A DNA stretch of 64,000 bases from Klenkia soli (GTDB taxonomy: Bacteria; Actinomycetota; Actinomycetes; Mycobacteriales; Geodermatophilaceae), in the NCBI RefSeq assembly GCF_900103975.1, contig NZ_FNIR01000002.1, forward strand, positions 1-64,000, read 5' to 3'. This document shows, one piece after another, positions 32,397 to 39,860 of this stretch. The notes beneath the pieces are model-generated. The model was given only the letters and a program-made list of their open reading frames with translations. It made no database searches and was not told the origin of the DNA. Position 1 is the first letter of the stretch. Each line of letters opens with the position of its first letter. A program made the position numbers and the translations under genes.

Positions 32397-34313
32397 CTAC
32401 GCGGTGGGGAGCCAGACGCGCATCGTGGAGCTGCCGGCCCGGCCCCAGCGGCGGTAGGGCACCAACGTCGCGGGCCGCTGCTCGGCGTCGGCGGCGGGGT
32501 GCGGCGCCTCGCCGTAGGGCAGGCCGTCGCCGTCCCGCGGGCCGGCGTCCGGGCGCACCTGCAGGGTGATCCCGACGCCGCCGTCGGCGGTCGCGGTGAG
32601 GCCGGCCGCCACGTCCACGGCGACCCGGTCGAGGTCCAGGCCCTGGTCGGCGGTGGCGTCCAGGCAGAGCACGTCGGGCCCGCGCTGGACGGTCACGCAC
32701 CCGCGCACCGCGTCGATGCGCGCGTCGGGGTGGGACCACCGCGGGGTGGTGTTCAGCACCAGCTCGATCGTCGTCCCGGCCGGGAGCGCGCCGTGCAGGA
32801 CGGCGGTGTCGTGCCCGACCGCCTGCTCAACGCCGTCGACCGTGACCCGGGCCCGCCCGCGGGACCAGCTCGGCACGCGCAGCGACAGCGTCCAGTCCCA
32901 GCCGGGCGCCTCGGTGACGGTGAGGACGACGGTGCCCTCGTCCGGGTAGCGGGTGCGCACCTGCAGCCCCACCCGGCCGGCGGGCAGGTCGGTGGCGATG
33001 TCGCACGAGGCGTACTGGTGCACCTGCAGGCCCTGGTCGTCGGCGGTGGCCAGGTAGCCGTCGAGGGAGGCCAGCAACCGGGCCACGTTGGGCAGGCAGC
33101 AGGAGACCTCGAACCAGGGCTGCCGCCCGCCGCCGCCGAAGGCCAGGGCCTCGCCGTCGGGGTCGGTGTCCGCGGTGGGGGTGCGCTGGTGCAGCGTGTT
33201 GGCGTAGAAGAACGACCGGCCGTCGTCCCCGGGCGAGGTGGCGACGACGTTGTAGAGCAGCCGCTCGACGACGTCGGCGTGCCGGGCGTCGCCGGTGGCC
33301 AGCAGCAGCCGCCAGGCCAGCATCACCCCGGCCACCCCGGCGCAGGTCTCGGCGTAGGCCCGGTCGGCGGGCAGCACCCAGTCGTCGGAGAACGCCTCGT
33401 CCTGGTGCCGCGAGCCCATGCCGCCGGTGACGTAGGTGCGCCGGGCCAGGGTGGTGTCCCACTGGGTGAGCACGGCCTGCAGCAGCTCGGCGTCGTCGGT
33501 CTCGACCGCGACGTCCACGGCGCCGGCGGCCAGGTACAGCGCCCGGACGGCGTGCCCGCGCAGCACCTGCGCCTCGCGGACCGGCTGGTCGTCGAGGAAG
33601 TAGGCGGCCCCGAACTCGTGCGGTGGCAGGGTGCCCCGGCCGCGGCGCTCCACGAACATCGCGGCCTGCTGCAGGTAGCGGGGCTCGCCGGTGGTGCGGT
33701 GCAGCTCGACCAGCGCCGTCTCGATCTCGGGGTGGCCGCAGACGGCGGCGACGCCGGCGGGGCCGAAGCGGTCGCACACCTGGTCGGCGACCCGGCGGGC
33801 GATCTGCAGCCACGCGTCGCCGGCCCCGGACCGGGCGTGCGCGACGGCGGCCTGCAGCAGGTGGCCGGCGCAGTACAGCTCGTGGCCGAAGGCGAGGTCG
33901 CTGTAGCGCTCGGGCTGGCCCGGTCGGCCGAAGGCGGTGTGCAGGTAGCCGTCCTCGGCCTGGGCCGAGCCCACCGTGGCGGCCAGCTTCTCCAGGTGCT
34001 CGAGCAGCTCCGGCGAGCCGGTGCGGGCGGCCTCCCAGGCCACCGCCTCGGCGTACTTGTAGATCTCGGAGTCGGTGAACTCCCGGCCGCGCCGGTCGGC
34101 GGGGGTGCCGGCGGCCGAGGCGTCGGTGAAGGCCTGCACCCAGCCCAGCCGCTCGGTCCAGCTGCGCAGGTGGTCCAGGGTCGCCGCACCGTTGACCGCC
34201 TGGAGCTCGTGCCACAGCCCACCGGTGAGGTGGACCTCGTCGAGGGTCAGCGGTCGCAGCCGGCCCCGTCCGGGCAGGGCCGGGGCGGCGGTCCGCGAGG
34301 TGGCAGCAGGCAC
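32397..34313 (-). CDS. GH127 beta-L-arabinofuranosidase (DUF1680)
   Basis: A 638-residue enzyme releasing beta-linked L-arabinofuranose. Seen: N-terminal (alpha/alpha)6 part with FTDSEIYKYAEAVAWEA, the Glu-x-Cys of YAETCAG (Glu322, Cys324) and the Cys pair in SCCLPN (Cys405, Cys406). These four residues correspond to the zinc site of Bifidobacterium HypBA1, in which one of the paired cysteines is the nucleophile. The C-terminus is beta-sandwich. There is no signal peptide, so it acts on imported oligosaccharides. The start is GTG at 34313. It is divergent from the sugar ABC importer, which probably feeds it. Confidence 0.9.
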   Translation of the reverse strand: MPAATSRTAAPALPGRGRLRPLTLDEVHLTGGLWHELQAVNGAATLDHLRSWTERLGWVQAFTDASAAGTPADRRGREFTDSEIYKYAEAVAWEAARTGSPELLEHLEKLAATVGSAQAEDGYLHTAFGRPGQPERYSDLAFGHELYCAGHLLQAAVAHARSGAGDAWLQIARRVADQVCDRFGPAGVAAVCGHPEIETALVELHRTTGEPRYLQQAAMFVERRGRGTLPPHEFGAAYFLDDQPVREAQVLRGHAVRALYLAAGAVDVAVETDDAELLQAVLTQWDTTLARRTYVTGGMGSRHQDEAFSDDWVLPADRAYAETCAGVAGVMLAWRLLLATGDARHADVVERLLYNVVATSPGDDGRSFFYANTLHQRTPTADTDPDGEALAFGGGGRQPWFEVSCCLPNVARLLASLDGYLATADDQGLQVHQYASCDIATDLPAGRVGLQVRTRYPDEGTVVLTVTEAPGWDWTLSLRVPSWSRGRARVTVDGVEQAVGHDTAVLHGALPAGTTIELVLNTTPRWSHPDARIDAVRGCVTVQRGPDVLCLDATADQGLDLDRVAVDVAAGLTATADGGVGITLQVRPDAGPRDGDGLPYGEAPHPAADAEQRPATLVPYRRWGRAGSSTMRVWLPTA

Positions 34314-34376: not shown

Positions 34377-34461
34377 ATCGAAAGAACCCAGTACCAGCCG
34401 AAGAAAGTTTCCGAAAACATGCCAGAAACCGTTGACGGGTGGGTGGCACCGCTCACACACT
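34377..34461 (+). promoter_or_regulatory. Promoter and candidate LacI operators before the sugar ABC genes
   Basis: The 204-base divergent gap contains an AT-rich island. A near-palindrome GTTTCCGAAAAC (34407-34418, 10 of 12 symmetric, CG-centred as in LacI operators) is followed by a possible -35 TTGACG (34432-34437) and, 18 bases on, CACACT (34456-34461) as a weak -10. The word ATCGAAAG lies at 34377-34384. The complements of ATCGAAAG and CGAAAAC recur in front of the LacI gene at 38824-39831. Transcription toward the binding-protein gene is inferred. Confidence 0.42.
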
Positions 34462-34517: not shown

Positions 34518-35771
34518 ATGTCCGCACGCGTCACCTCGAGGGGCACCGCCGCCGGCCTCCTGGCGCTCGCCCTCGTCACCAGCCTGTCGGCCTGCTCCAA
34601 CGGGAGCTCCGACGACTCGGCATCGGGCGGCGAGGGTTCGTCGTCGCTGACCCTGTGGGACCCGTACCCGCAGTTCGACGAGTCCGACGCCTGGCCCCAG
34701 CTGGTCCAGAAGTGCGGCGAGGAGAACGGGGTGACGATCGAGCGGACGGGCTACGACACCACCGACCTCACCAACCAGGTGCTGCGTGCGGCCCAGCAGG
34801 GCAACGCCCCCAGCGTGCTGGTGGTCGACAACCCCGTCGTCTCCACGCTGGCCGACGGCGGCGTGCTGGCCGACAACGACACCACCGGCCTGGACGCCTC
34901 GGGCGTCGAGGACAACATCCTGGCCGCCGGCGAGGTGGACGGGCAGACCTACGGGGTGCCGATCGGGGCCAACACCCTGGCGCTCTACTACAACAAGACG
35001 GTGCTCTCCGCGGCCGGTGTCGACCCCTCGACCATCACCGACTGGGACAGCCTCACCGATGCCCTGCAGAAGGTGGAGGACTCGGGGAAGAACGGCATCA
35101 CCTTCTCCGCGATCGGCACCGAGGAGGGCTCCTTCCAGTTCCTCCCGTGGTTCTGGGGCTCCGGCGCCGAGCTGACCGACCTCGCCAGCAGCGACGCGCA
35201 GTCGGCCCTGTCGCTGTGGAGCGGCTGGGTGCAGCAGGGCCTCGCCCCGCAGACGGTGATCAGCAACAACCAGCAGTCGGCGTGGGAGGAGTTCCTCACC
35301 GGCGACTACGGCTTCGTCGAGAACGGCACCTGGCAGCTCGGCCCGGTCAAGGAGAGCGGCCTGGACTGGGGCGTCATCCCGATCCCCGGTCGCGACGGCG
35401 GCACGGCCCCGGCGCCCACGGGTGGTGAGTTCGTGACCATCCCGACCCAGGCCGACACCGCCAGCTACGACAAGTCCGCGGCCGTCGTCCAGTGCCTCAC
35501 CTCGGCCGACAACGCCCTGGAGACCGACACCACGCTGTCCTACGTCTCGGCGCTGGCCGACGTGCAGGAGCAGCAGGTCTCGGCCGACGCCGACCTCCAG
35601 CCCTGGGTCGAGGCCGTCTCGGCCGCCCGCGGCCGCACGTCGGACGGCCTGGGCACCGACTACCCGGGCATCTCCGAGCAGCTCTGGAACGCCGTGCAGG
35701 CTGCGCTCAGCGGTTCGCAGTCCCCGCAGGCCGCCCTCGAGGCCGCCCAGCAGGCGGCGGGCAGCAACTGA
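34518..35771 (+). CDS. Sugar ABC importer solute-binding lipoprotein, family 1
   Basis: A 417-residue extracellular binding protein. The signal region ends in a lipobox with Cys at LVTSLSAC (about residue 32), followed by a Ser/Gly/Asp linker and the SBP_bac_1 start SLTLWDPYPQ. VPIGANTLALYYNKTVL and the paired-lobe layout are typical of ABC-type oligosaccharide importers (CUT1). GAGAGGG lies before the ATG at 34518. With the two permeases downstream it forms an importer, probably for arabinose- or xylose-containing oligosaccharides because of its neighbours. The ligand is not proven. Confidence 0.92.
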   Translation: MSARVTSRGTAAGLLALALVTSLSACSNGSSDDSASGGEGSSSLTLWDPYPQFDESDAWPQLVQKCGEENGVTIERTGYDTTDLTNQVLRAAQQGNAPSVLVVDNPVVSTLADGGVLADNDTTGLDASGVEDNILAAGEVDGQTYGVPIGANTLALYYNKTVLSAAGVDPSTITDWDSLTDALQKVEDSGKNGITFSAIGTEEGSFQFLPWFWGSGAELTDLASSDAQSALSLWSGWVQQGLAPQTVISNNQQSAWEEFLTGDYGFVENGTWQLGPVKESGLDWGVIPIPGRDGGTAPAPTGGEFVTIPTQADTASYDKSAAVVQCLTSADNALETDTTLSYVSALADVQEQQVSADADLQPWVEAVSAARGRTSDGLGTDYPGISEQLWNAVQAALSGSQSPQAALEAAQQAAGSN

Positions 35772-35860: not shown

Positions 35861-36823
35861 ATGGCCAGCACACTGACCCCCGTGGCGGACCCCGCGCGCG
35901 CGTCGGCCCCCAGCCAGGTGTCGGCTCCCCGGCCCCGCCGCCGGCGGCGGCCCGAACGCTGGGCGGCCGCAGCCTTCCTGGCGCCGCTGGTGGTCTACCT
36001 GGTGGCGTTCTACGCCTACCCGCTGTACCGCAACGTCGAGCTGAGCCTGCGCAACTACACCGTGGCCAGCTTCGTCAACGGCGGCGCGCAGTTCACCGGC
36101 TTCGACAACTACCGCACGGTGCTGTCGGACCCCGTGTTCGTGCAGGCCCTGTGGCACACCGCGGTGTTCACCCTCGGCTCCCTGGCCGTGCAGTTCACCC
36201 TCGGCATGGCCCTGGCGGTGTTCTTCTCCGCGCACTTCCGGCTCTCGGGCCTGCTCCGGGCGCTGTTCCTCGTGCCGTGGCTGCTGCCTCTCATCGTCTC
36301 CAGCTCCACCTGGGCGTGGATGCTCAACGGCCAGTCCGGCGTGGTCAACGCCGGCCTGCACGCGGTCGGGTTGCCCGAGCCGCAGTGGCTGTCCTCCCCG
36401 ACGTGGTCCCTGGTCGCGGTGCTGATCGCCAACATCTGGATCGGCGTCCCGTTCAACCTGGTGCTGCTGCACTCGGGGCTGCAGGCCATCAGCAGCGACG
36501 TGAACGAGGCGGCGGCGCTGGACGGCGCGGGCGCCTGGCAGCGGTTCCGCCACATCACCTTCCCGCTGCTGCGCCCGGTCTCGGCGATCACCCTGCTGCT
36601 CGGCCTCGTGTACACGCTGAAGGTCTTCGACATCATCTGGATCATGACCCGGGGCGGGCCGTCGAACTCCTCCACGACGCTGGCGACCTGGTCCTACCAG
36701 CTGTCCTTCGGCGGGCTCATCCCGAAGTTCGGCCCCGGCGCCGCCGTGGGCAACCTGCTCATCGTCGTGGCGTTCCTGGCCGGCCTCCTCTACCTGCGCT
36801 ACCAGCGGAAGGCCGAGCTGTGA
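35861..36823 (+). CDS. Sugar ABC importer permease, MalF/UgpA type
   Basis: A 320-residue membrane subunit. A cytoplasmic Arg-rich N-terminus (RPRRRRRPERW) precedes six hydrophobic segments, and the EAA loop NEAAALDGAGAWQRFRHITFP lies in the C-terminal third. This is the CUT1 MalF/UgpA pattern. AGGAGGAG lies nine bases before the ATG. It overlaps the next permease by GTGA. No ATPase gene is in this cluster. Confidence 0.93.
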   Translation: MASTLTPVADPARASAPSQVSAPRPRRRRRPERWAAAAFLAPLVVYLVAFYAYPLYRNVELSLRNYTVASFVNGGAQFTGFDNYRTVLSDPVFVQALWHTAVFTLGSLAVQFTLGMALAVFFSAHFRLSGLLRALFLVPWLLPLIVSSSTWAWMLNGQSGVVNAGLHAVGLPEPQWLSSPTWSLVAVLIANIWIGVPFNLVLLHSGLQAISSDVNEAAALDGAGAWQRFRHITFPLLRPVSAITLLLGLVYTLKVFDIIWIMTRGGPSNSSTTLATWSYQLSFGGLIPKFGPGAAVGNLLIVVAFLAGLLYLRYQRKAEL

Positions 36824-37677
36824 CCACCACGACCCCCACCACAACCTCCGCCAGCACCCGGCGGGCCCGGCGGGGCACCGGCCGCACCGTCCTCGGGGTC
36901 GTCGCGACCCTGGTGATGCTGTTCCCGGTCTACTGGATGGTCAACGTCTCGCTGACCCCCCAGGACCGCATGCGCAAGTCGCCGCCGGACCTGTTCCCGT
37001 TCCACCCCTCGCTGGAGGGCTACCGCACCGTCATCGCCGACCAGGGCCCCTACCTGGCGACGTCCCTGGTGATCTCGCTGGCCACCGTCGTCCTCACCCT
37101 GCTGATCAGCGCCCCGGCCGGGTTCGCGCTGGCCAAGCTGCGGCCCCGGGGTGCCGGCGCGCTGACCTTCGTCGTGCTGATCTCGCAGATGATCCCCGGG
37201 GTCATCATGGCCATGGGCTTCTACGCCGTGTTCCTCAACGCCGGGCTGCTGGACAACCCGGTGGGGCTGGTCATCGCCGACTCCACCATCGCCGTGCCGT
37301 TCGGGGTGCTGATCTTCTCGGCGTTCATGTCCGGCGTGCCCGACGAGATCATGCAGGCCGCGAAGATGGACGGCGCCGGCACCTTCCGCACCTTCTGGGC
37401 CATCGTGCTGCCGGTGTCGCGCAACGCCGCGGTCACCGTCTCGCTGTTCACGTTCCTGTGGGCCTGGTCGGACTTCCTCTACGCCAACACCCTGGCCCGC
37501 AGCTCCGACTACCAGCCGATCACGCTGGGCATCTACAAGTACATCGGGAACAACAGCTCCGACTGGAACGCCATCCTGGCCACCGCGGTCGTCGCCTCCA
37601 TCCCGGCCGCCGTCCTCCTCGTCGCCGCCCAGCGCTACGTCTCGGCCGGCGTCACCGCCGGCGCGGTCAAGGACTGA
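36820..37677 (+). CDS. Sugar ABC importer permease, MalG/UgpE type
   Basis: A 285-residue membrane subunit with a Thr-rich N-terminus, first helix at about residues 25-45 ending in VYWMVNVSLTP, and the EAA loop DEIMQAAKMDGAGTFRTFWAIVLP. These are CUT1 MalG/UgpE hallmarks. GTG at 36820 overlaps the upstream stop (GTGA). The importer lacks its own ATPase. Actinobacteria often share one MsiK-type ATPase among such importers, which is the likely explanation. The regulator-dehydrogenase fusion follows after nine bases, on the same transcript. Confidence 0.92.
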   Translation: MTTTTPTTTSASTRRARRGTGRTVLGVVATLVMLFPVYWMVNVSLTPQDRMRKSPPDLFPFHPSLEGYRTVIADQGPYLATSLVISLATVVLTLLISAPAGFALAKLRPRGAGALTFVVLISQMIPGVIMAMGFYAVFLNAGLLDNPVGLVIADSTIAVPFGVLIFSAFMSGVPDEIMQAAKMDGAGTFRTFWAIVLPVSRNAAVTVSLFTFLWAWSDFLYANTLARSSDYQPITLGIYKYIGNNSSDWNAILATAVVASIPAAVLLVAAQRYVSAGVTAGAVKD

Positions 37678-37686
37678 GGCCCGCAC

Positions 37687-38817
37687 ATGTCGACCGCCGC
37701 CCCCGCCGAGCCGCCCCGCCCGGCGGTGATCGGCGACGTCGCCCTGCTGGCCGGGGTCTCGCGCCAGACGGTGTCGCGGGTGCTCAACGGCAGCGGGAGC
37801 GTCAGCGCCGAGGCCCGGCGCCGGGTGCAGGACGCCGTGGTCCGGCTGGGCTACGAGCCCGACGCCAGCGCCCGTGCCCTGGGTGCCCGGCGGCGGTCGT
37901 CCGCGGGCCGGGTGGTGCCGGCCGCACCGACGGGCGGGGTCGTCGAGCGGGTCGCCCCGGTCGCCCGGCACGTCCTGGTCACCGGCGGCAGCGGCAAGCT
38001 CGGCCGCGCGGTCGTGGCGCAGCTGGTCGAGGACGGCGACCGGGTCTCGGTGGTGGACCTCGCCCACCCCGGCCGGGACGACGTCGCCTGGACCCGCGCC
38101 GACCTCACCGACTACGGCCAGGCGGTCGGCGTCCTCACCGGCGTCGACGACCGCTGGGGGCGGCCGGACGCCGTCGTCCACCTGGCCGCCCTGCCGGCCC
38201 CGGGGCTGCGGCCGGACGCGACCACCTTCGCCGCCAACGTGACAACCACCTACAACGTCTTCTCGGCCTGCCGGGTGGCCGGCGTCGACACCGTCGTCTG
38301 GGCGTCCAGCGAGACGGTGCTGGGGTTGCCCTTCGACGTTCCGCCGCCCTACCTCCCCCTGGACGAGGGGTGCGGGCCGGCGCCGACCACCTCCTACTCG
38401 CTGTCCAAGACGCTGGAGGAGGAGATGGCCCGGCAGTTCGCCCGCTGGCGGCCCGAGCTGTCGATCACCGGGCTGCGGTTCTCCAACGTGATGGAGCCCG
38501 CCGACTACGCCGCGTTCCCCGGCTTCGACGCCGACCCCGCCGGCCGCCGCTGGAACGCGTGGGCCTACGTCGACGCCCGGGACGGCGCCCGGGCGGTCAC
38601 CGCCGCGCTGGCCGCCCGGTTGCCCGGGGCCGAGCTGTTCGTGGTCGCCAACGACGACACCGTCATGGGCCGGCCCAGCGCGGAGCTCGCCGCCGGCTGG
38701 TTCCCCGGGGTGCCGGTGCGCGGGCAGGTCAGCGGCCACCGGGCGCTGATGAGCTCGGCCCGGGCGCAGCGGTTGCTGGGCTGGGTGCCCCGGCACAGCT
38801 GGCGCGACGAGGTCTGA
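37687..38817 (+). CDS. LacI-type DNA-binding domain fused to a short-chain dehydrogenase/epimerase
   Basis: A single uninterrupted 376-residue frame joining two families. Residues 14-70 form a complete LacI headpiece: IGDVALLAGVSRQTVSRVLN, then the hinge-helix pattern LGYEPDASARALGARRR. After a 25-residue linker, residues 95-376 are an extended SDR with the dinucleotide motif TGGSGKLG (99-106), Asp124 at the end of strand 2 (suggesting NAD), Ser in WASSET (207-208) and the catalytic YSLSK (Tyr237, Lys241). The usual LacI sugar-binding domain is absent. It is last in the sugar importer operon. SDRs of this look act on sugars or sugar acids, so it may be an enzyme that also reports sugar or NAD state to DNA. 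Both halves appear intact; the function is inferred. Confidence 0.9.
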   Translation: MSTAAPAEPPRPAVIGDVALLAGVSRQTVSRVLNGSGSVSAEARRRVQDAVVRLGYEPDASARALGARRRSSAGRVVPAAPTGGVVERVAPVARHVLVTGGSGKLGRAVVAQLVEDGDRVSVVDLAHPGRDDVAWTRADLTDYGQAVGVLTGVDDRWGRPDAVVHLAALPAPGLRPDATTFAANVTTTYNVFSACRVAGVDTVVWASSETVLGLPFDVPPPYLPLDEGCGPAPTTSYSLSKTLEEEMARQFARWRPELSITGLRFSNVMEPADYAAFPGFDADPAGRRWNAWAYVDARDGARAVTAALAARLPGAELFVVANDDTVMGRPSAELAAGWFPGVPVRGQVSGHRALMSSARAQRLLGWVPRHSWRDEV

Positions 38818-38823
38818 ACCCGC

Positions 38824-39831
38824 TCAGCCGCCGCCGAGGGTGGACTCGCGCAGCACCAGCCGGCAGGGCAGCCGCTGCACGCCGCGCTGCGGGCTGCCGT
38901 TGATCGCCTCGAACAGCGCCCGCGCCGCGGTCTGGCCCACCACCTCGAGGTTGAGGTCGATGCTGGTCAGCGGCGGCCGGGCGGCCACGGTGATGACCTC
39001 CCAGTTGTCGTAGCCGACCACCGCGACGTCGTGCGGGATGCGCACACCGCGGTCGCGCAGGGTGTCGCAGACCCCGCGGGCGATGTTGTCGTTGCCGCAG
39101 AAGATGGCGTCGACGTCGGGGTCCTGGCGCAGCACCATCTCGGCGGCCACCCGGCCCCACTGCTCGGTCCAGTCGCCGGTGAGCGGGCTGCGGCCCGACA
39201 GCGCCAGGTCGTGCTCGGCGAGGACCCGCTCGGTGGCCGTGGCCCGACGCCGGGTGGCGACGAAGTCGTCGGGGCCGGTGACGTGGGCGATGCGGCGGCG
39301 GCCCAGGGCCAGCAGGTGCTCGACCGCGGTGACCGCCCCGGCGTCCTCGTCGGGGACGACCGAGAAGTCGTCGGGGGAGGTCGACGCCCCGTAGGCGTAG
39401 ACCACGGGGACGCCCAGGTCGCCGAGGGAGGGCTGGTCGTCGGTGGTGGCCCCCAGCGCGATCAGCCCGTCGATGCCGTGGTCGAGCAGGGTCTGCAGGT
39501 GGTGCCGCTTGCGGATGTCGTCACCGCGGGAGTCGCAGAGGACGACGGACATGCTCTCGGCACCCACGGCGTCGCCGGCGCCCAGCAGCACCGGGGTGCT
39601 GAACCGCCCCACGCTGTCGCTGGTGAGCAGCCCGACGGTGCGGGTCGAGCCGGCCCGCGGACGGCGCGTGCTGCTGGCCGACCGGTACCCCATCTCCTCG
39701 GCCAGCGCCCGCACCCGGGCGCGGGTGGCCGAGCTGATGTCCTGGCCGGACCCCAACGCCTTGGACACCGTGGCGATCGAGACCCCGGCGGCGTCGGCCA
39801 CGTCGGTGAGACGGATGGGCACCGCGCTCAC
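38824..39831 (-). CDS. LacI-family transcriptional regulator
   Basis: A 335-residue standard LacI repressor. The HTH and hinge are IRLTDVADAAGVSIATVSKAL with GYRSASSTRR. The periplasmic-binding-like domain runs from STRTVGLLTSDSVGRF through IDGLIALGATTDD, IFCGNDNIARG and VAVVGYDNWE to the final RLVLRESTLGG. The ligand is most likely a pentose or oligosaccharide, from context. It converges with the fusion gene after six bases. GTG at 39831 is taken; GTG at 39822 (three codons later) is equally possible as neither has a good ribosome site. It probably controls the importer and itself. Confidence 0.92.
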   Translation of the reverse strand: MSAVPIRLTDVADAAGVSIATVSKALGSGQDISSATRARVRALAEEMGYRSASSTRRPRAGSTRTVGLLTSDSVGRFSTPVLLGAGDAVGAESMSVVLCDSRGDDIRKRHHLQTLLDHGIDGLIALGATTDDQPSLGDLGVPVVYAYGASTSPDDFSVVPDEDAGAVTAVEHLLALGRRRIAHVTGPDDFVATRRRATATERVLAEHDLALSGRSPLTGDWTEQWGRVAAEMVLRQDPDVDAIFCGNDNIARGVCDTLRDRGVRIPHDVAVVGYDNWEVITVAARPPLTSIDLNLEVVGQTAARALFEAINGSPQRGVQRLPCRLVLRESTLGGG

Positions 39832-39860
39832 GCGGCCGGACGGATGGTGGCGGGCACAGG

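Follow-up and report, generated by a model that had tools for sequence, protein, structure and literature searches.

A LacI-type headpiece fused to an extended short-chain dehydrogenase in Klenkia and a related Modestobacter, a possible enzyme-regulator of arabinoside use

The window analyzed here is a 64,000-nucleotide stretch of Klenkia soli DNA (assembly GCF_900103975.1, contig NZ_FNIR01000002.1, positions 1 to 64,000). Positions 37687–38817 on its forward strand hold a single open frame of 376 codons and a stop. Translation and Pfam divide the 376-residue product into a LacI headpiece, a linker, and an extended short-chain dehydrogenase (SDR). The LacI helix-turn-helix (HTH) spans residues 15–59 (positions 37729–37863) and matches PF00356 with an E value of 2.9e-16 and 59.4 bits against a cut-off of 27. 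It has the recognition helix SRQTVSRV and is also supported by a whole-genome search and by modelled helices. It is followed by a putative hinge-helix region (residues 60–72, positions 37864–37902) and by a linker (positions 37903–37965) that is predicted to be disordered. The extended SDR domain occupies residues 94–376 (positions 37966–38814), as defined by Pfam, alignment, and model. Its match to Epimerase (PF01370) covers residues 96–272 with an E value of 2.4e-22 and 80 bits against a cut-off of 20.9.

In addition to the PF01370 match, the SDR part has the other features of its family: a glycine-rich dinucleotide loop (VTGGSGKLG, residues 98–106), the serine (Ser207/208), and the Tyr-x3-Lys pair (Tyr237 and Lys241). 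Gly100, Gly103, Gly106, Asp124, Ser207, Ser208, Tyr237, and Lys241 are invariant in an alignment of 35 fused and unfused sequences. An aspartate after the second strand goes with a preference for NAD, and Asp124 suggests NAD as the cofactor of the fused SDR. The fusion protein has no match to PF00532, PF13377, PF13407, or a Peripla_BP family at E ≤ 0.01 in the Pfam scan, unlike the facing LacI gene (positions 38824–39846), which has all of PF00532, PF13377, and PF13407. The sequence-only reading of this locus had described one unbroken frame joining a LacI headpiece to an extended SDR, with the active-site residues intact and the normal LacI sensor domain missing, and these points are borne out. 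The fused headpiece ranks sixth by PF00356 score among the 15 LacI matches in its own genome and keeps the LacI core residues. Third-codon-position GC is 0.96, 0.96, and 0.99 in the headpiece, linker, and SDR of the window gene, and ranges from 0.91 to 1.00 across all parts of the three fused genes described below.

The monomer model of the fusion protein has a mean pLDDT of 82 and predicts an ordered HTH, a disordered linker, and an ordered SDR. The HTH is modelled as helices at residues 15–22, 26–34, and 41–54. The modelled helix at residues 60–72 is partly confident, with pLDDT values below 50 at residues 64–66 and again at 68–91. In a fold search, which speaks to the SDR domain only, the best match was 4id9, a structural-genomics SDR, with Z 27.6 and an rmsd of 2.8 across 249 residues. 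GalE-type enzymes followed closely with tied scores. Among the best 60 of 114 PDB matches, no chain matched both halves, and the LacI chains extended at most to residue 115 of the fusion protein. By weak profile similarity and by fold, the fused SDR resembles GalE, Azf-type NAD glucose-6-phosphate dehydrogenase, and uronate dehydrogenase, the last through profile hits to the PDB entries 6mfh and 3rft. It lies far below the curated equivalog cut-offs of Azf (38 vs. 400 bits) and GalE (50.7 vs. 262.3 bits).

The fusion is the last gene of an operon on the forward strand, preceded by an ABC sugar-binding protein gene (SBP_bac_8, positions 34518–35771) and two ABC permease genes (both BPD_transp_1, positions 35861–36823 and 36823–37677, the latter with an approximate start). 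It ends 6 nucleotides from the end of the conventional LacI repressor gene, which lies on the reverse strand and is convergent with it. The gene order and Pfam assignments agree with the earlier description of a sugar-importer operon closed by the fusion and faced by a conventional LacI gene. Divergent from the operon is a reverse-strand gene for a GH127 beta-L-arabinofuranosidase (positions 32397–34313, Pfam).

The same fusion architecture is present in Klenkia marina DSM 45722 and Modestobacter sp. Leaf380, which belong to the same GTDB genus and are separate assemblies. The fusion is thus a real gene and not an artefact. Three of the nine genomes of the genus contain a close relative of the SDR, and it is fused in all three. 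GH127 is likewise present in three of the nine, exactly those with the fusion; one of the others (G006) is 73% complete. A separate, unfused SDR with 42–45% identity occurs in eight of the nine genomes (L002, L011–L017), the exception again being the 73% complete one.

The K. marina and Leaf380 fusions come after a run of genes for a sugar-binding protein, two permeases, and GH127. The Leaf380 run has an extra ATPase-like gene, judged from sequence only. The sugar-binding protein and GH127 of these two are 88% and 81% identical to each other, while those of the window are 25–27% and 53–54% identical to their counterparts, so the SDR keeps with GH127 and the transporter differs. The remainder of the K. 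marina locus is syntenic with the window (ALDH 96%, XylB 86%, ROK 84%, and XylA 93% identity; XylB alone was checked by Pfam, as an FGGY kinase, and the other names are labels).

The start of the fusion differs slightly among the three genomes. The window gene starts at an ATG 9 nucleotides past the permease stop. The likely start in Leaf380 is 4 nucleotides past the stop of the preceding operon gene, and in K. marina it overlaps that gene. Since the likely start codons abut or overlap the preceding gene in all three, the headpiece is probably translated. A convincing ribosome-binding site lies near the start of the window gene but not of the others: in Leaf380 and K. marina no clear site was seen at the likely start, and translational coupling to the preceding gene is therefore presumed there. 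The linkers contain GTG codons at which the SDR could restart internally, but these have no clear ribosome-binding site. By the domain boundaries used for the selection analysis, the three linkers are 24, 33, and 61 residues long.

The distribution of the fusion was surveyed in a family search of 112 genomes, an order sample of 397, and a class sample of 394. At E ≤ 1e-60, the SDR matched 90 genomes of the order sample and 51 of the class sample, 140 in total because the window genome is in both. Three of these 140 are fused, and two have too little upstream DNA to be tested. A profile built from six headpieces was used to look for a LacI HTH at 129 loci (with duplicates, paralogues, and four plasmid loci among them) and at a further 76, for which upstream stretches only were searched in six frames. 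An HTH in the frame of the SDR was found at seven loci, which represent the three fused genomes; the next best in-frame score in the 129-locus set had an E value of 0.21. As a control, the same profile recovered 44 of 45 LacI loci. Five loci (L096, L067, L073, L076, and L232) have less than 200 nucleotides of upstream sequence and are not fully testable, L096 and L232 being those of the two genomes mentioned above. The survey covers relatives of this SDR, so a LacI headpiece joined to a distant SDR would escape it. Among 645 plasmid records, none covered 80% or more of the protein, a judgement by coverage only apart from the four loci read and tested. The sequence-only reading had suggested a search for further single-chain LacI and SDR proteins and their gene neighbourhoods, and had allowed that homologs might always encode two separate proteins. 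Two more fusions were found, in related genomes, and the rest of the relatives tested stand alone.

The stand-alone relatives include proteins of four Geodermatophilus species that are 83–85% identical and share the SDR and its active-site residues, but lack the headpiece. Within the loci read, none of the Geodermatophilus SDR genes is accompanied by a relative of the sugar-operon genes of the window. A remnant of a headpiece ahead of these genes was considered and rejected, as a search of all frames within 1.5 kb gave no LacI HTH at E 0.01, and a short leader reading ahead of the SDR is not conserved between the four species. A match in Micromonospora parva beginning at residue 18 (L062) is not a fusion, its reading frame having no HTH. 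The same applies to 10 order- and class-level rows with matches starting before residue 60.

Two further observations concern relatives of the SDR. A phage-collection record from human faeces labelled Bacteriophage sp. (MT835996.1:13713-14346) contains pieces of the SDR at 55.6% identity and is possibly bacterial DNA filed as phage. On the Agrobacterium plasmid NZ_CP139999.1 (L135), an SDR relative lies in a run with a sugar ABC transporter and with 3-oxo-tetronate kinase and decarboxylase genes, which hints at a sugar-acid substrate there.

The class-level family f51 offers an unfused counterpart, in that 6 of its 17 matched genomes have a LacI gene immediately upstream of the SDR. Five of these pairs are divergent (G589, G533, G730, G571, and G783), and the four headpieces read among them are of the QTVSRV type. 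The sixth (G675, locus L248) is in tandem. Its LacI gene, which is cut off, has the sequence SHQTVSRV and is followed by a stop codon, 20 nucleotides, and the start of the SDR in another frame. LacI followed by SDR is the order that a fusion needs, and if such a tandem pair lost the LacI core, a fusion of the kind described here would result.

At two of these f51 loci (L272 and L275), the neighbours of the SDR are GH127, a sugar-binding protein, permeases, and a LacI that is 52% identical to the conventional LacI of the window. Their sugar-binding protein, GH127, and LacI share 62–64% identity with the K. marina and Leaf380 counterparts. The SDR is therefore tied to arabinoside use in separate arrangements. 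In L272, the genes after a QTVSRV-type LacI encode an L-ribulose-5-phosphate 4-epimerase (NF005123, 371 bits vs. 251) and, with a score below the cut-off, a XylB-like kinase. In L275, the QTVSRV-type LacI is followed by a XylB-like kinase, also below the cut-off. The sugar-binding protein beside the SDR in L274 resembles YtfQ, below the cut-off. No GH127 match was found in 12 kb at G675 or at L273 and L274. In the stored flanks of 36 named loci, a LacI HTH was present at four, two of them the fused ones, with about 0.05 per locus expected. The remaining 2 of 34 unfused loci are near background, so adjacency to LacI is not a general rule.

Selection on the three fused genes was estimated as dN/dS by a simple Nei-Gojobori count. 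Between Leaf380 and K. marina, both halves are constrained, with ratios of approximately 0.27 in the HTH and 0.23 in the SDR, and the linker, at 0.66, is less so. Between the window and K. marina, dN/dS is approximately 0.88 for the HTH, 0.46 for the SDR, and 2.2 for the linker. Against both other genes, the window headpiece is near 0.9 and the linker approximately 2. The window headpiece has therefore diverged freely or is of another source.

A tree of the SDR was constructed from 29 rows picked after a quick tree of 114. The window protein groups with the unfused Geodermatophilus proteins (97/97), and Leaf380 groups with K. marina (100/99). The three fused proteins form one group in 2% of 200 bootstrap trees, while a single fused clade is not rejected (AU p 0.168). 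Both two fusions and one fusion followed by a loss fit this tree. The window headpiece is 53–55% identical to the other two fused headpieces and up to 58% identical to ordinary LacI headpieces. Being no closer to its fused counterparts than to unrelated LacI headpieces, it favours two events. One event with fast-changing headpieces is favoured by the adjoining conventional LacI, which is 77% identical to the LacI directly downstream of the Leaf380 fusion (L046:9279-10268, in the opposite orientation), and by the headpieces of this pair, which share only 37 of 58 residues.

Two operator-like sequences lie ahead of the window operon. The first, TTTCCGAAAAC (positions 34408–34418, forward strand), has 1 exact match in the window, where 0.03 are expected at up to 1 mismatch. 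It also occurs in the promoter of the K. marina sugar-binding protein gene, with TCCGAAAAC in Leaf380. In both, the site is within a conserved 31-base block that contains the palindrome AAAACGTTTT. Because the LacI genes beside these promoters have the recognition helix SIATVSKA or SIATASKA, TTTCCGAAAAC is assigned to the conventional LacI type as a putative operator.

The second sequence, TGGCACCGCTCACA (positions 34444–34457, forward strand), agrees with TGTGACCGGTCACA at 11 of 14 positions and is a weak candidate operator for the fused headpiece. Sites of this type number 3 at up to 3 mismatches in the window, against 4.5 expected, so it is not above chance and proves nothing about the operator. 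A LacI in L272 has the same SRQTVSRV helix as the fusion, and the interval separating this LacI from araD contains the perfect palindrome CTGTGACCGGTCACAG. Sites with at most 1 mismatch from TGTGASCGSTCACA number 2, 2, and 7 in the three fused genomes of the genus and 3, 7, 2, 3, and 1 in the five unfused ones. Searches for central-CG palindromes and for lac- and ara-type sites gave no operator above chance for the fused headpiece. The sequence-only reading had suggested that the facing LacI and the fusion may compete for similar operators. This now looks less likely, because their recognition helices differ (SIATVSKA vs. SRQTVSRV). The ara-type LacI proteins with QTVSRV are a closer type to the fused headpiece than the facing LacI is.

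The palindromes beside ara-type LacI genes form a small natural specificity series, which seems to track the residue before QTVSRV (L272:7310, L273:7597, L274:7323, and L275:8863). Arginine goes with TGTGACCGGTCACA; threonine, alanine, and serine with TGTTACCGGTAACA; and histidine, as in the genus of the window, with TGTTAGCGCTAACA. The perfect palindrome TGTTAGCGCTAACA occurs before araB in all eight genus genomes read (L285–L292; G000–G005, G007, and G008), approximately 1 kb past the ara-type LacI headpiece. G000 has one exact copy and a second copy with one mismatch, which lies approximately 80 bp from another headpiece of the HQTVSRV type. A further sequence, TGCGAGCGCTCACA, is one base off the lac-type site TGTGAGCGCTCACA and lies within 9 kb of araA in seven of the eight genomes (G000:C15:180193, G002:C7:1000122, G001:C3:827542, G004:C3:19957, G005:C66:6845, G007:C7:816333, and G008:C4:2508527). 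In the eighth (G003), TGTTAGCGCTCACA is found at a similar distance. Perhaps TGCGAGCGCTCACA is the operator of an arabinose transporter operon.

The fusion can be compared with several known systems. A survey of 1281 LacI regulons defines the LacI family by the pairing of headpiece and sugar-binding domain and calls this domain structure rigid (PMC4052901). Like members of the LacI/GalR family, the fusion has an N-terminal PF00356 headpiece, a sugar operon, and a recognition helix of known type, and the region after its HTH may form a hinge helix. Unlike them, it has no periplasmic-binding-protein sensor, and by that definition it is therefore not a member of the family.

The nearest precedent is BzdR, in which an HTH-XRE domain is joined to a shikimate-kinase-like domain, together with chimera Q1, a laboratory-built bifunctional stage (PMC3602430). 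As in the fusion, a DNA-binding domain is linked to an enzyme fold. BzdR differs in having another HTH family and another enzyme; its authors held that BzdR could not have arisen without a loss of activity (PMC3602430), whereas the fusion keeps its catalytic residues. A further difference is that fused and unfused relatives occur side by side here. BtAraR consists of an enzyme-derived Nudix domain and a winged HTH, and its DNA-binding and enzyme folds differ from those of the fusion. It belongs to the NrtR family and regulates L-arabinose (PMC4666351). No LacI-SDR fusion regulator was found by title or start of abstract among the matches listed in the open-licence literature. The earlier statement that no regulator family of this build is described is too strong in general, since a DNA-binding domain combined with an enzyme or enzyme-derived domain was already known from BzdR (PMC3602430).

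The reading that we consider most likely is that a working enzyme and a working DNA-binding headpiece together control the arabinoside operon. The fusion would then be a bifunctional enzyme-regulator of arabinoside use, of the "trigger enzyme" type, to which we give a probability of approximately 0.5. The C-terminal extended SDR would be a catalytically competent NAD-type sugar oxidoreductase, and its substrate would be a sugar that the GH127 arabinofuranosidase sets free and the ABC transporter of the operon takes up. The LacI headpiece, on its flexible linker of 24–61 residues, would bind a palindromic operator once the SDR dimerises. Substrate and NAD(H) bound to the SDR would alter dimerisation or reach, and thereby how strongly the protein represses its own operon or an arabinose promoter. 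The fusion, its recurrence, its place in the operon, and the conservation of its two halves are observed. We infer the NAD preference (from Asp124), the sugar class, the dimer, the DNA binding, and the signal. With a flexible linker, dimerisation or occupancy would couple the two halves in place of a hinge of the LacI type, and the varying linker length speaks against a tight, LacI-like allosteric joint.

This enzyme-regulator reading is favoured by the three separate assemblies, the position of the likely starts against the preceding gene, the co-occurrence with GH127, the constraint on HTH and SDR between Leaf380 and K. marina, the invariant active site, the LacI neighbours in f51, and the model. 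Against it are the absence of an operator above chance, the diverged headpiece of the window, the variable linker, the near-background LacI adjacency of the unfused loci, and the lack of a clear ribosome-binding site in two of the three.

Some of these points would suit an SDR enzyme whose headpiece is a passenger, that is, a captured DNA-binding domain with weak or no function whose contact with DNA is non-specific tethering. The low identity of the window headpiece to the other two, its dN/dS near 0.9 against both, the failure to find an operator for the fused headpiece, and an SDR that stands alone nearly everywhere tested all fit such a passenger. However, between Leaf380 and K. marina the constraint on the HTH is similar to that on the enzyme and exceeds that on the linker, and the window headpiece keeps its LacI core residues and its sixth place among the LacI domains of the genome. 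We regard this explanation as unlikely.

It is quite unlikely that the headpiece is a sensorless competitor, occupying the operators of another LacI (AraR-type or facing) while the SDR serves only as dimeriser and enzyme. QTVSRV is common to the fusion and to the LacI ahead of araB in the eight genus genomes read (G006 was left out), and the TGTTAGCGCTAACA and TGCGAGCGCTCACA sites near araB and araA could offer such operators. The residue before the glutamine is R or Y in the fusions but H in those LacI proteins, sites elsewhere change with that residue, and the sites are equally common in genomes without the fusion.

That the SDR half is a pure ligand sensor which has lost turnover, as in BzdR, is very unlikely. 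It draws on a BzdR-type chimera that was catalytically inactive and responded to inducer in vivo, which the active one did not (PMC3602430). In the fusion, on the other hand, the cofactor and catalytic positions are all as in the stand-alone proteins, and the dN/dS of the SDR is low. That a LacI gene and an SDR gene were joined artificially, by a frameshift or in assembly, would fit the unfused state of nearly all tested relatives, but is ruled out for practical purposes by three separate assemblies with different operon orders and different linkers.

If the enzyme-regulator reading holds, the fusion may be an enzyme caught in the course of becoming a gene regulator. More specifically, and tentatively, it could be a naturally occurring halfway stage from enzyme to transcription factor that has kept its catalysis, in which an SDR given a LacI headpiece reports the flux or redox state of arabinoside catabolism to an operator. 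Stand-alone, LacI-adjacent (once in tandem, at 20 nucleotides), and fused forms are all found in present-day relatives, possibly after two fusion events. The fusion would then show that in nature a LacI headpiece can be attached to an enzyme whose active site is complete, a long flexible linker replacing the tight coupling of the hinge. Because the unfused SDR of Geodermatophilus and the two-gene arrangements survive, the evolution from enzyme to regulator could be tested on natural before-and-after proteins and not on built chimeras. If functional, the arrangement would also be a simple design for metabolite sensors.
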